Position numbers and translations under genes: made by a program
Assembly: GCF_030704535.1 (NCBI RefSeq)
Contig: NC_081818.1
Span: forward strand, 28,786,001 to 28,850,000
DNA: 64,000 nucleotides
Direction of reading: 5' to 3'
Origin: Vitis vinifera
Lineage: Eukaryota > Streptophyta > Magnoliopsida > Vitales > Vitaceae
Notes under the pieces: model-generated
What the model saw: the letters and a program-made list of their open reading frames with translations, nothing else
Databases searched by the model: none
Told to the model about the DNA's origin: nothing
Shown here: piece after piece, positions 32,091 through 44,813 of the stretch
How the letters are laid out: every line of letters starts with the position of its first letter
Numbering within the stretch: position 1 is the first letter of the stretch

Positions 32091-33528
32091 TCAAACCCTT
32101 CCTTGGCCGATCATTTTCCTCGATGATTTGGCTCCTTTGGCTGATAATTTCTTCTTCAGCCTTGCTTCTGTTTTCCTCTGAATTGCTGAAATCAAGCCCT
32201 CCAAGCAGATTCGCGCATCTTTCATAAGAGTTTTGGTGGTTAGATGCTCAGCAACATCAGCTGGGGTCATATCCACTTCCCTCAACAACTCTCTAATCTT
32301 TGGGAACAGATGATGTGATTCCACATTCAGGTAATTCCTAGCCAGAACTTTGAATGCTTCATAGGTACAGTAGGATAGCTCTATATGCTTATCCATCCGT
32401 CCTTTCCGAATCAAAGCTTGGTCCAGTTTCTCTACATGATTAGTTGTGAACACTATGACTCTTTCTCCCCCACAAGCCGACCACAGCCCATCGATGAAAT
32501 TCAGAAGCCCAGATAATGTGACCTTGCTGGTTTTGGTGCCCTTTTCTTTTCCTTCTTTCTTCTCTTTCTCATCTTCCTCCTCCTCTGAATCCTCGTATGT
32601 TGCTGCTTTCTTCCTTTGACCAGTGAGATCGAGGGAACAATCAATGTCTTCAATCACAATGATAGACTTGCTTGATATCTCCATCAACAGCATCTTCAAC
32701 TCAGTGTTGTTCTCCACCCCAGTAAGTTCCAGATCATAAACGTCATAATTCAAGAGATTAGCCATGACTGCAATCATGGTGGACTTACCAGTCCCTGGAG
32801 GGCCATAAAGGAGATACCCACGCTTCCAAGCTCTACCAATTCTCCTATAATACTCTTCATTCCCACTGAATGCTATGAGATCCTCCATAATTTTCCTCCT
32901 TCTCGGGCTCCAACGCCAGCGTCTCGAACGTTGCAGTGTGCTCAAACGCTACCCAGTTCCACTCGCCCTCCTTATTGGTATAAAGCTTCTTCTGCCTGTT
33001 TCTGTCTTTGAGCGCTTTACCCTCTCTTAGCACATAATTCAGGTAAGGCCCAGAGATAAGATCCCAGTGACGCTGGTGGAAAGTGAGAGTGTAATACCTC
33101 CTATCATCGCTCTGTCCTCGAACTGGGTATATTGAAATTGACTTCCTGTTGAGATTTTGTTTTCCAGATATCCACCATACTTGGACTCCCTGAAACACAT
33201 CTACCACCTCCTCATGATCATCAATGCTCAAAACCAGAGACCTGCTGTTCTTAACTAAACCACCTTTGAGCTTGGAGGCTTGCCTGGTGGACTTGTAGCC
33301 GAGGTAAGTCTGGATGTCCTTGTAAGCTTCGCTCCGTGCTCCCCACTTTCCGGTGAACTCATCGAAAGTGATTTCAATATAAGGATTGAAGAAATTCACC
33401 AGTTTCTGATAGTATCTCCTGATGAAGTCACCAAGGCGCTGAGGGAAGTGGTTCTGAAACATAGCCCACATGAACATTGCACTGCCCACCATGGATCCCA
33501 CATTCCCGAACATATCTCTGCTCTCCAT
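32091..33528 (-). pseudogene. BCS1-like AAA-ATPase (AATP1/ASD type), split by a frameshift
   Basis: One intronless gene is visible in two frames. From the ATG at 33528 come MESRDMFGNVGSMVGSAMFM (signal-anchor-like), the AAA-associated N-terminal domain (PYIEITFDEFTGKWG, YYTLTFHQRHWDLISGPYLN) and TFETLALEPEK. The frame then shifts by one base near 32888-32897, where an extra A follows GAGAAGGAGGAAA. The other frame continues with IMEDLIAF, Walker A GPPGTGKS, Walker B IIVIEDIDCS, SGLLNFIDGLWSACGGERV and a tail to 32091. The neighbour at 35759-37138 reads TLALDPEKKKEIMDDLM through the same site. Everything else is conserved, so this is a recent pseudogene, an allele defect or a sequence error. 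A TATATATA at 33581-33588 may be its promoter. Confidence 0.85.
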
Positions 33529-35758
33529 TCTCACTATTCCCTCTTCTTCTTGCTGGTGCAGCTCGCCTCTCCCACTCCCCTATATATAAGAAAAGTTCTG
33601 TGGACATAGACAAGGATCGGTGATCCTAGTTGGAAGTGTTTCTAAATCCTGTTTTGAGTTGGAATCTTCCTAGTTTAAGGTATGTTAATAAAATAGAACC
33701 TTAATGCAAGAATAACTTAAGACTAGGTAGTGGACCAATTATGGGGATTTAAAGATATGGTTGTTTTAAAACTACTTCAAATCTAGACTTTTTAAAGCAA
33801 CTTTAGATTCTAACTTCAATGACTTTCTAATTGGATTCCTTTCTATTACTATAAATTTAGGTAATATTTATTTTGAAGATTACCATATTTTAAAAATGGT
33901 AATTTTAATTTAATTTAGAAATATTTTATGAATTGTAATAGTTTAAAAAGACAATTTCTATTAATTTTGAAAGAAAAAAAACACAACTTAATTCAAATTG
34001 GATTTTATTGTAAATTTAGAAATACTTTTTAAATTGTTTATCTAAAAAAATTGAGAAAGAAGGTTTTTAAGATTAAAAATAAAATTACCAAAAATTTAGG
34101 ACATATTTGGTTGATGTTTTCAAAAACTATTTTCTGTTCGGAAAAAAAAAACACTGAAAACTAGTTTGGCAAAGGAATATTAACTTGTTTTCTGTGTTCT
34201 CTATGTTTTTAAATACCTTGAACATGTTAAAGATGTTTTTATTGTTTTTTACACTATTTAAAGAACAAGAAAAAATAGGATACTGTTTGTGTTTTCGCCC
34301 TAATCTCTTCTTTTTCATGGCTGGTTTTCGCCTCCACAGATTCTTTCACTCTTCAGTTCAAACGGATGTGCTGCTCTGGTGTGGAGCAACTGTTATCCAT
34401 TGGAGCTTGCATGAACTTTTCCCTTTTTTTTTTGCATTTTACTCTCTCTCCTCTCCATACGCCTCTTTTATTTTTCCTTTTATGGGTATGAAATGGGGAA
34501 GATTATCCCTGTTAAGATTCGAGCGAACACAACAACTCCTCATCATTTCTTTTTCCACACAACCAATAACAGAAACTTCAAAATTCTCCCTCCCTCAATT
34601 TTTTCAACAACCAAACAAGACCATACCTAAAAAAAATATTGAAGAAAAAAACAACCGGAACAAAAAAGAATGACAAAAAAAAAAAAAAAAAAAAGAGTAA
34701 ATCAAACAACCAATTTTTTTGTGTAAGAATTCAGAAATTCTGGAAACTTCACCTATTGATTCCATTTATTTTTGTGTTTTTCTCTTTAGAGTTGAATTTC
34801 TTTCGATTTTAAAGATAAAGAGGTAGTAGTTGTGGGACTGGGAGTACGTGGAGTGTTGGGAGAGAAAGTAGAGAGAGAAGTATTCCCCTTTCATACAATT
34901 TTTATTTATTCATTTATTAAAAAAAAACTTTCAATTAAAAGTTTTTTATTTTATTTATTCTAAAAAATTATTTTTTATAAATTGTGAATGTAAAAATTAT
35001 TTATATATTTACAATATCAATTAGTTAAAGAAAATACTCAATTTTAAAAAACAAAACCAATTATTATTATCTTTTGTTGAATTTTTTTTATTTATATATA
35101 TTTTTATTAATAAAGAGGAGTTACGAAAAAACATTCAATTAAAAAAAAATCAACTTTCAAACATGTTTTTTGTTTTATTTATTCTAAAAAACTTTTTTAT
35201 TAACTCAACCAAACATTTTATTTTTTAGAACAAAAATTGTTTTTCAGAATTCAGTTCCCAAACACAATTTTTTTTTCTAAAAACACAAAAAACTATTTTT
35301 TAGAACAGTTTTCAAAAACAGCAACCAAACAGGCTCTCAATCTTTGGGTTTGGCATATTTGCATGAGATACTTCGAAATTTTTTTTATTATTAATAGTGA
35401 TTCTTAATTATTAACCATGCATTCCCTTGCAACCTTAAGAGAAAAAGACTATTTGAATCGACTTTTGAGACTCTTCTTTAATATCTATTTAGTATACATG
35501 TTTGACAAGTGTTTTTGAAAATTGTTATGAAAAATATCAAATATGTTCTCGGCCAGTAAAATTTATCAAAAGAAAATTTTAAGCATTGTATACTAAATAT
35601 ACTATCAATGTGCATGGCTAATCACAAACTTACAATGAAAATAGAATGGGTAGTTAAAACAAAGGAAACATCCAAAATGCCTAGTAACGAAATAACCAAA
35701 TATATGATATATGATATAGGATCTATACAACACAAATTGAAGTCTTATAGCATCTTCC
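33529..35758. other. Spacer between the two AAA-ATPase copies
   Basis: Holds the promoter of the left copy (TATATATA at 33581-33588), a long TIR element at 34099-35336 and the 3' end region of the right copy. Open frames at 34127-34673 lie inside the element and have no recognisable product. Confidence 0.5.
34099..35336. mobile_element. Long PIF/Harbinger-like TIR element, relative of 23765-24924
   Basis: Left end GGACATATTTGGTTGATG.. and complement of right end GAGCCTGTTTGGTTGCTG.. run into TTTTTGAAAACTGTTCT-like strings as in the other copy. Flanks are TTA (34096-34098) and TCA (35337-35339). 1238 bp, no transposase seen. Confidence 0.7.
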
Positions 35759-37138
35759 TCAACTTCCAACCTTCTCTCTTTCTTTGGCTTTCTCAAGGGC
35801 TTTGATCAGATCCTCCAAACGAAATTCAGCGTCTTCGGAGAGAGTCTTGGGCATTAGATGCTCAGCAACATCCGCAGGGGTCATGTTGACTTGCCCCAAC
35901 AACTCACCGATTTTGGGAAATGCAGGGTGTGATTCTAAACTAAGGTAATTCTTAGCCAGGATTTTGAATGCTTGGAAGCTGCAGTAGGCCAACTCTATAT
36001 GCTTATCCATCCTTCCTTTCCTTATCAGTGCCGGATCGAGCTTCTCCACATGGTTGGTAGTAAAGACTATGAGTCTTTCTCCCCCGCAAGAAGACCAGAT
36101 GCCGTCAATAAAATTCAGAAGCCCCGATAGCGTAACGTTTCTGGTTTCGTTACTCTTGCTTTTTGTTGCTGATTTCTTTACTTTGTCATCTCCTTCACCG
36201 TCTGCAAGCTTATCTGTTGGGGCTTTCTTCCTTGGAGCGGTGAGATCAAGTGAACAGTCAATGTCTTCAATCACAATGATGGACTTGCTGGATATCTCCA
36301 TTAAAAGCTTCTTGAGCTCGGTGTTACTCTTCACCCCAGTGAGTTCAAGATCGTAAACATCATAATTCAAGAGATTAGCCATGGCCGCAATCATGGTGGA
36401 CTTGCCGGTCCCTGGAGGACCGTAAAGGAGATACCCGCGCTTCCAAGCTCTCCCAATTCTGGCATAAAACTGTTCACCCTTACTGAATGCCATCAGATCA
36501 TCCATAATTTCCTTCTTCTTCTCAGGGTCAAGCGCCAGCGTCTCGAATGTCGCAGGGTGCTGGAACACCACCTGGTTCCACTCATTATCCTCATTGGTGT
36601 AAAGCTTCTTCTTCCTGTTTCTACTGTTGAGCGCTCTACCCTCTTTTAACACATAATTCAAGTAAGGCCCAATAATCAGAGCCCGGTGCCGCTTATGGAA
36701 AGTGAGAGTGTAGTACCTCTTCTCATGATTGGTTCCGCTGTAGACTGAAATTGAGTTGGTATTGGGCGCATGTTTTCCAAGAAGCCACCGTACTTGGACA
36801 CCCTGAAACTCATCTGTCACCTCTTCGAAATCGCTCATGCCGAGAACGAGAGTCTTGTTATGGGCCAAACTGCCTATCAGCCGAGACGCCTGAGCGAATG
36901 AAGTCTGGCCGAGGTAAGTCCTAATATCACCGTAAGCTTGACTGGGTGTTGCCCACTTCCCGACGAATTGGTTGAAGGTGATTGAAATTTGGGGATTGAA
37001 GAATTTCACCAGGTTTTGATAGCGCCTCCAGACAGAGAACCGGAGATGCTCAGGGAAGTATTGCCGAAACATGGCACATACAAACATTAAACCAGCCATC
37101 GTGGATCCCACATTAGCAAACAGACCTCTCATGGCCAT
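35759..37138 (-). CDS. BCS1-like AAA-ATPase (AATP1/ASD type), intact
   Basis: A single exon of 459 residues starts MAMRGLFANVGSTMAGLMF. Order: N-terminal hydrophobic anchor (about 1-25), plant AAA-ATP-associated domain (about 25-125, YYTLTFHKRHRALIIGPYLN after it), AAA domain with Walker A GPPGTGKS, Walker B IIVIEDIDCS and sensor segment RLIVFTTNHVEKLDPALIRKGRMD. A lysine-rich loop (KKAPTDKLADGEGDDKVKK) lies between Walker B and the second half, as in this family. Plant members sit in mitochondria, ER or membranes and are often induced by stress or salicylate; the substrate is unknown. The family is plant-expanded and commonly intronless. It is the tandem partner of the split copy at 32091-33528. 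A TATATAA-type box lies at 37225-37219, about 80 nt upstream of the ATG. Confidence 0.93.
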   Translation of the reverse strand: MAMRGLFANVGSTMAGLMFVCAMFRQYFPEHLRFSVWRRYQNLVKFFNPQISITFNQFVGKWATPSQAYGDIRTYLGQTSFAQASRLIGSLAHNKTLVLGMSDFEEVTDEFQGVQVRWLLGKHAPNTNSISVYSGTNHEKRYYTLTFHKRHRALIIGPYLNYVLKEGRALNSRNRKKKLYTNEDNEWNQVVFQHPATFETLALDPEKKKEIMDDLMAFSKGEQFYARIGRAWKRGYLLYGPPGTGKSTMIAAMANLLNYDVYDLELTGVKSNTELKKLLMEISSKSIIVIEDIDCSLDLTAPRKKAPTDKLADGEGDDKVKKSATKSKSNETRNVTLSGLLNFIDGIWSSCGGERLIVFTTNHVEKLDPALIRKGRMDKHIELAYCSFQAFKILAKNYLSLESHPAFPKIGELLGQVNMTPADVAEHLMPKTLSEDAEFRLEDLIKALEKAKEREKVGS

Positions 37139-43563: not shown

Positions 43564-43571
43564 TATAAATA
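43564..43571 (+). promoter_or_regulatory. TATA box upstream of the first microRNA hairpin
   Basis: TATAAATA within GTCTATAAATACGACAGG predicts a start near 43595, about 35 nt before the hairpin base. A CAGG/CAAG tandem (43583-43610) lies at the predicted start. Pol II promoters with a close TATA box are normal for plant MIR genes. Confidence 0.6.
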
Positions 43572-43629
43572 CGACAGGCCATCAGGCAGGCAGGCAGGCA
43601 GGCAAGCAAGAAAGAAGGAAAGAATCACA

Positions 43630-43730
43630 AGAAGTTTGGGGAGTCTTGCCGCACGAGAGATGGCACCTGCTCTTTCATATATGTTGTGGGCAAGTGCCAT
43701 CTTTCTGTGGCAACACACCCTCCAACTTCT
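43630..43730 (+). ncRNA. microRNA precursor, miR4376/miR3627/miR391 group (candidate 1)
   Basis: A 101-nt inverted repeat folds AGAAGTTTGGGGAGTCTTGC.. against the complement AGAAGTTGGAGGGTGTGTTG... The core stem pairs TGCCGCACGAGAGATGGCAC (43647-43666) with GTGCCATCTTTCTGTGGCA (43694-43712), with one bulge and one or two mismatches, and a loop near 43672-43689. The likely 5p product (about 43646-43667, starting TTGCCGCACGAGAGATGGCA) resembles miR3627 as I remember it (TTGTCGCAGGAGAGATGGCA), with C for G in the centre. The group includes miR4376 of tomato, known to guide cutting of ACA10-type Ca2+-ATPase mRNA. The small open frames over it are artefacts. Expression is unproven. Confidence 0.72.
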
Positions 43731-43919
43731 TTTCTTACAACCGACCATCTCTTTTTCTTTTCTCTACCTTCCTCCTCGTTTCATTTTTGGCGACATTCAT
43801 CTTCATTTTGTCTTCCCACATGTGTTGTCTCACACCGTTGTCTTATAGCATATGTTCATTTCTAATATGGAGGCTTGAGGCTCCCCACCCATGGAATCTG
43901 CTGAAATTTTACAATATTT

Positions 43920-44691: not shown

Positions 44692-44813
44692 GAGAGGGAT
44701 GTGAAGGGACCTCTGTCGCAGGAGAGATGATGCCCAGTGCAATGGTGTAGAAGCCCAGTACTTGAGCAGTAGGTATCATCTCTCCTAGACTGAGGCCCCT
44801 GCAATTTCTCACA
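44692..44813 (+). ncRNA. microRNA precursor, miR4376/miR5225/miR391 group (candidate 2)
   Basis: The 5' arm GGGACCTCTGTCGCAGGAG.. (44706 on) pairs with the 3' arm ending ..CTCTCCTAGACTGAGGCCCC (44780-44799). Its complement reads GGGGCCTCAGTCTAGGAGAG.., leaving one bulge and a few mismatches over about 34 nt. The likely 5p product at 44712-44733 starts TCTGTCGCAGGAGAGATGAT and looks the same as legume miR5225 as I recall it; 3p is about 44772-44793. Loop about 44740-44765. The known target class is autoinhibited Ca2+-ATPase (ACA10/ACA8). It lies 1 kb after candidate 1 on the same strand. Genuine processing is inferred from the stem and the family match. Confidence 0.82.

Follow-up and report, generated by a model that had tools for sequence, protein, structure and literature searches.

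The 64,000-nucleotide stretch of Vitis vinifera DNA analysed here (the window) carries two microRNA-type hairpins, which we refer to as A and B (Table 1). Folding of A (43629-43731) gave a stem-loop of 39 base pairs at -55.6 kcal/mol, whose predicted duplex has a single 1-nt bulge and one mismatch at its end. Over the wider span 43625-43742 the minimum free energy was -56.1 kcal/mol (z -7.31), a value equalled by none of 200 shuffled sequences, and among 6,390 segments of 104 nt from both strands of the 64 kb three attained -45 kcal/mol: two over B (one per strand) and one over A. The initial annotation had placed a diverged family hairpin with a stem of about 40 pairs at 43630..43730, which these folds bear out; its statement that this stem is longer than that of B holds only just (39 against 37 pairs). 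It had also described a kept GCACGAGAGATGGCAC, which we located at 43651-43666, and GCACGAG instead of GCAGGAG, and these sequence differences are exact. Within the window, GAGAGATGGCAC alone, with up to 2 mismatches, had 4 matches against 2.5 expected in 64 kb, which is not above chance, and we therefore rely on the hairpin and the 22-mer as evidence. At gathering thresholds, Rfam models matched nothing in the window.

Table 1. Features of the two hairpins in the window and of the related loci elsewhere in the assembly. Positions without a prefix are those of the window.
Feature	Position	Strand	Basis or remark
Putative TATA box of pri-miRNA A, TATAAAT	43564..43570	+	82 nt upstream of 5p
Pre-miRNA hairpin A, MIR3627 paralogue	43629..43731	+	39 base pairs; fold and whole-hairpin homology to MIR3627
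Mature 22-nt miRNA-5p of A, UUGCCGCACGAGAGAUGGCACC	43646..43667	+	Equals novel_mir_80 (PMC6366190 table 3)
C at miRNA position 9 (the altered central base), predicted to form a 1-nt asymmetric bulge	43654	+	Fold
Predicted miRNA* (3p) of A, 21 nt, UGCCAUCUUUCUGUGGCAACA	43695..43715	+	Pairing with 2-nt 3' overhangs
Hairpin B, first family member	44702..44803	+	37 base pairs
5p of B, TCTGTCGCAGGAGAGATGATGC	44712..44733	+	Equals va-miR041/MirC23 (PMC3353164 table); exact match in window
MIR3627	C14:28514697	-	Hairpin; 315 kb from A, same chromosome
C17a	C17:6321032		Hairpin, family locus
va-miR046 sequence, two copies (va-miR046 / Vv-miR055 pair)	C17:6323858 and 6324082		Both form hairpins

The 5p 22-mer of A occurs once in the window and, at 0 mismatches, once in the assembly. 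A text search with pieces of both arms matched one paper, PMC6366190, whose table 3 gives novel_mir_80 as TTGCCGCACGAGAGATGGCACC. This RNA agrees letter for letter with 43646-43667, the interval that the initial annotation had proposed for the 5p, and thus represents a discrete 22-nt RNA from one arm. The 3p ends given in the annotation (43693-43714) lie 1-2 nt away from those predicted by a 2-nt overhang (43695-43715); fragments of the predicted miRNA* were absent from literature text searches. Both libraries of that study were made from 'Summer Black' (V. vinifera x V. labrusca) leaves, and the table lists 39 reads of novel_mir_80 in the copper-treated library and 0 in the control, so that read support for A as tabulated is a low count in one of two libraries of a single study. 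The mature 5' end of A used throughout depends on this paper, and the family is reported in shifted registers. In the same table, novel_mir_22/81 and novel_mir_31/86 are one-base variants with zeros in opposite libraries, so its presence/absence calls seem to result artificially from predicting miRNAs separately in each library. Because of these variants we regard the copper response of novel_mir_80 as doubtful, and we did not accept "Cu-induced" as a description of it. Among the RNAs assayed by qRT-PCR in the portions of PMC6366190 available to us is novel_mir_81, and novel_mir_80 was not found there; the main-text passages give no target for novel_mir_80.

The C at 43654 is predicted to be unpaired, and therefore the duplex is predicted to be 22/21 nt. 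A would thus be modelled as a 22-nt guide with the bulge at position 9, and 22-nt guides from asymmetric duplexes have been linked to phasiRNA triggering (PMC5902766). We rejected the idea that the G-to-C change created the bulge: with G restored in silico the fold is also -55.6 kcal/mol and a 1-nt bulge persists. Since the asymmetry stays in place, the position-9 change is not about processing. A TATAAAT motif lies upstream of the 5p in three of six family loci (A at -82, MIR3627 at -75 and C17a at -55) and is absent from the 200 nt upstream of B and of the two va-miR046 copies (C17b and C17c). As a motif, CTATAAATA by itself is no rarer in the window than chance predicts (2 matches, 1.4 expected). 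A CAGG/CAAG short repeat (window 43583-43608) separates the TATA motif of A from its hairpin, in what is presumably the pri-miRNA 5' leader.

Related loci were sought with family patterns across the whole assembly (495.6 Mb, 21 contigs), and six of them form hairpins: MIR3627, A, B, C17a and the two va-miR046 copies. A further candidate at C17:10569345 was rejected for want of a good hairpin (fold -25.2) and of precursor similarity (z 0.6 to A; -0.5 to 2.8 to the remaining loci). A and MIR3627 grouped together with support 0.934 when the six precursors were placed in an unrooted tree. Their precursors share 95 of 124 aligned bases across the whole hairpin (z 15.0, 100 shuffles), far more than the likeness of A to B (z 3.1, 100 shuffles), and 18 of the 22 bases of the mature sequences are identical, which places A in the miR3627 family. 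Judged by sequence, then, the nearest relative of A is vvi-MIR3627 and not the adjacent B. Only at positions 4 and 9 does A have a base found in none of the five other copies. The window occupies C14:28786001-28850000 of the assembly; MIR3627 (PMC5050227) and va-miR041 (PMC3353164) have both been reported on chr14, which identifies C14 as grapevine chromosome 14. The precursors of the va-miR046 pair are near-identical, lie 224 bases apart and have G+A-rich repeats upstream; the pair is apparently a recent tandem duplication. We take B to be the grape miR4376/5225 locus.

BCS1-like AAA-ATPase genes flank both MIR3627 (C14:28509790 and 28520665) and A (C14:28822239), and a block duplication therefore fits, although the BCS1-like query gave 52 matches assembly-wide and the genes form a long array. 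Genes of this type near MIR3627-type genes extend over 32091-37138 of the window and C14:28509790-28570838. One AAA-ATPase match lies 53 kb from the C17 cluster, which is only suggestive of synteny between C14 and C17.

The miR3627/4376/5225 family is reported to target the Ca2+-ATPase ACA10 in grape, directly upstream of the start codon (PMC6404619). The assembly contains two ACA-type Ca2+-ATPase genes, on C11 and C9. In a search with the exon-2 peptide these were the only places at E up to 10; the exon-3 search returned 34 places, led by C11 and C9 with a wide margin, and most of the remaining strong matches lie within long uninterrupted frames. The two genes have 21 non-overlapping protein blocks in common, collinear except for one short block (20 of 21 keep their order), and the SDKTGTLTLN motif is present; this comparison leaves out 36 of 67 matched rows that fall beyond the part of C11 used as the gene, those inspected being retroelement-like. 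Their best solved relative is Arabidopsis ACA8 (8qmp), against which the C11 fragment scores 335.8 bits and the C9 fragment 312.2. Arabidopsis ACA8, ACA9 and ACA10 form one clade, in which ACA9 is mainly expressed in pollen (PMC6032332). The C11 gene is likely ACA10, the name given to Vitvi11g01176 in PMC11586177. From its N-terminal sequence our guess is that the C9 gene is the ACA9 orthologue, and its lower score against ACA8 fits this identity without proving it. The first intron of the C9 gene is long and contains copia-like retrotransposon frames (C9:21410999-21412462) that run antisense to the gene.

The C11 site, GGTGTCATCTCTCCTGCGACAG, lies 19 nt before the ATG. The C9 site, at C9:21419413 on the strand opposite to the match, lies 7 nt before the ATG that opens MNGSGDMEAASASGGGMVGGDEDEVVYLDPFNIATTKNASVETLKRWR. 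This exon-1 peptide resembles an ACA-type pump N-terminus (PF12515, E 1.9e-4; its 21.3 bits are under the curated cut-off of 25). From an in-frame stop at -114 up to the start codon there is no in-frame ATG, and the site is therefore placed in the predicted leader. Thus, as is typical of the superfamily, A has a predicted site near the ATG in the leader of an ACA-type Ca2+-ATPase. The best local match between the C9 and C11 leaders is the site itself.

With up to 3 mismatches, the 22-mer of A has 10 places in the whole assembly: A itself, C9, seven copies of a dispersed repeat and one other. The C9 site has 2 mismatches. When G:U pairs were allowed, 27 places had up to 2 mismatches and, besides A, only C9 had fewer than 2 (one mismatch). 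Because a reversed control pattern has 61 places against these 27, matches with 2 mismatches do not exceed chance and may fall below it. We scored sites with a penalty of 1 for a mismatch and 0.5 for G:U, doubled at positions 2-13, following an Allen/TargetFinder-type scheme. Among the 30 distinct site sequences in the listed matches, A excluded, C9 has a penalty of 1.5 and the next best has 5. The target prediction with the changed central base called for by the initial annotation thus leads to C9 as the best site in the assembly. The dispersed repeat is probably not a target, given its penalties of 5-6; it is at least 3 kb long, its seven copies are 85-94% identical in alignments over 1 kb, and it contains a 22-mer 3 mismatches from A. 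Within the window, sites with a penalty of up to 6 were confined to the antisense strand of the miRNA loci. No shuffled version of A among 20,000 reached 1.5 against the 220 nt around the C9 site, the minimum being 6.0.

The scores on the two genes are reciprocal. A has 1.5 on C9 and 5.0 on C11, whereas C17a has 6.0 and 1.0, MIR3627 6.0 and 2.5, and B 5.0-5.5 (two registers) and 2.0, respectively. The va-miR046 sequence fits both poorly (7.5 on C9, 5.5 on C11). In a miR4376-like register neither score of B is good (7.5 on C9, 5.0 on C11), and A shifted 3 nt downstream has 3 on C9 and 6.5 on C11. Duplex energies follow the same pattern, with -43.4 on C9 and -31.4 on C11 for A against -28.6 and -42.0 for C17a. 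At guide position 4, A has C where the others have U; opposite it the C9 site carries G and the C11 site A. At position 9, A has C where the others have G, and there the C9 site carries G and the C11 site C. The compensating bases in C9 at the positions unique to the guide, the published 22-nt reads, the grouping with MIR3627 and the near-perfect C9 site together lend good computational support to the suggestion of the initial annotation that A is a new family member whose target choice has shifted.

These scores bear on one alternative, in which A is another miR3627/4376 copy acting on ACA10 and its base changes are tolerated noise. ACA10 is the family's reported target in grape, as cited above, and A does score 5.0 on C11, so it may act weakly there. 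However, A is mismatched to the C11 site at precisely positions 4 and 9, the duplex has only 0.67 of the energy of a perfect one, and a far better site is present in the paralogous C9 gene; we regard mere redundancy as improbable. We consider it at least as improbable that A is a decaying or idle copy, slightly processed and without a target that matters, whose fit to C9 is left over from an ancestral site. The low read count in one library and the absent miRNA* match would suit such a copy, but the arms of A are still well paired, and the two positions unique to A are both changed in the C9 site too. When equal numbers of random substitutions were made in MIR3627 and C17a, 1 and 4 of 200,000, respectively, reached 1.5 or less on C9, under a null that ignores shared history.

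Two further alternatives concern the origin of the hairpin. A and B lie on the same strand, 1.07 kb apart, and belong to the same superfamily, as expected if local duplication had produced a single, co-transcribed tandem MIR cluster, and a shared transcript is possible. Yet A is nearer to MIR3627, 315 kb off, than to its neighbour (z 15.0 against 3.1), and its TATA motif is placed about as in MIR3627 while B is without one. Of the annotation's proposal that A is the second half of a tandem cluster only the position stands, and we think such a cluster unlikely. The long stem of 39 pairs, and the description of vvi-MIR3627 as atypical, phased and unstranded (PMC6404619), could instead point to an inverted repeat yielding siRNAs, or to a young hairpin formed by inverted duplication of its target gene. 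Against the former, there is one defined published 22-mer, and the stem is short and imperfect for such a repeat. Against the latter, the match between hairpin A and the C9 leader ends at 21 nt whereas the likeness to MIR3627 spans the hairpin; an origin by inverted target duplication was rejected on this ground, the likeness being confined to the site. Either form is very improbable.

Most probably, then, A is a MIR3627 paralogue whose guide has shifted from ACA10 (C11) to the second Ca2+-ATPase (C9). It would be a Pol II-transcribed MIR gene, with a presumed transcription start of its own, that arose by duplication of vvi-MIR3627 on the same chromosome, and Dicer-like processing would release the 22-nt guide from the asymmetric 22/21 duplex. 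The guide changes U4 to C and G9 to C would move its preference off ACA10 and onto the ACA8/9/10-type gene on C9, whose 5' leader has the matching changes. AGO1 loaded with the 22-mer of A would slice this leader within the site GGCGCCATCTCTCGTGCGGCAG, at the bond facing guide positions 10 and 11, and a guide of this length could trigger phasiRNAs reaching into the C9 coding region. The first intron of the C9 gene, about 19 kb long with copia-like insertions, weighs against this explanation. We give an even chance to the reading that positions 4 and 9 changed jointly in A and the C9 gene, to form an orthogonal pair insulated from the MIR3627/4376-ACA10 module; in that reading the position-9 change is a double transversion without a wobble intermediate.

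Comparison with known systems places A close to vvi-MIR3627, with which it has in common the 5' register, the 22-nt length, whole-hairpin homology, the upstream TATA motif and the AAA-ATPase neighbours. It differs in having C at positions 4 and 9, U at 16 and C at 22, in the bulge at position 9, and in its predicted target, the C9 gene rather than ACA10. miR4376 and miR5225, the ACA10-targeting 22-nt miRNAs of the miR390-derived superfamily, likewise have the core GAGAGATG, the 22-nt length and a Ca2+-ATPase start-codon site (PMC6404619, PMC5902766). B, taken as their grape counterpart, differs from A in that it keeps GCAGGAG and fits C11 rather than C9. The va-miR046 / Vv-miR055 sequences have GAGAGATGGCACCTGC in common with A; unlike A, they have a shifted register, keep CAGG and fit neither Ca2+-ATPase site well.

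Other targets have been put forward for the family: in apple, a degradome target called ACA8 and an AT-hook protein (PMC4523022) and, in an earlier study, an amino acid transporter (PMC3446319), and in grape PAL/Grip22. In cassava, one 22-mer, mes-miR3627, is listed as the trigger at two Ca2+-ATPase phasiRNA loci, although one of the two rows is labelled miR393 (PMC4730657). Action on more than one pump is thus not new, and cassava is a possible precedent; there a single sequence is listed for both pumps, whereas in grape two sequences appear to divide the work. We found neither miR4376 together with ACA9 nor, in the excerpts retrieved, a split of targets between two diverged miR3627-family guides in the literature searched, and a wider literature search gave no paper on ACA9 with any of the three miRNA family names among the matches listed.

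A is a new and so far unnamed member of a known family, probably with a private target, and the published read novel_mir_80 can now be assigned to a locus and a family and given a target that can be tested. If the two modules are insulated from each other, two plasma-membrane calcium pumps, perhaps one of them with an ACA9-like reproductive role, would be under separate control. The proposed shift would also add a second Ca2+-ATPase to the circuit described for ACA10 in the grape literature. Pairs of miRNAs and targets are usually kept fixed through selection on both partners. Matching changes in a paralogous guide and a paralogous target, including one that adjoins the slicing position and has no wobble pair as an intermediate, would let one ask how such pairs separate.
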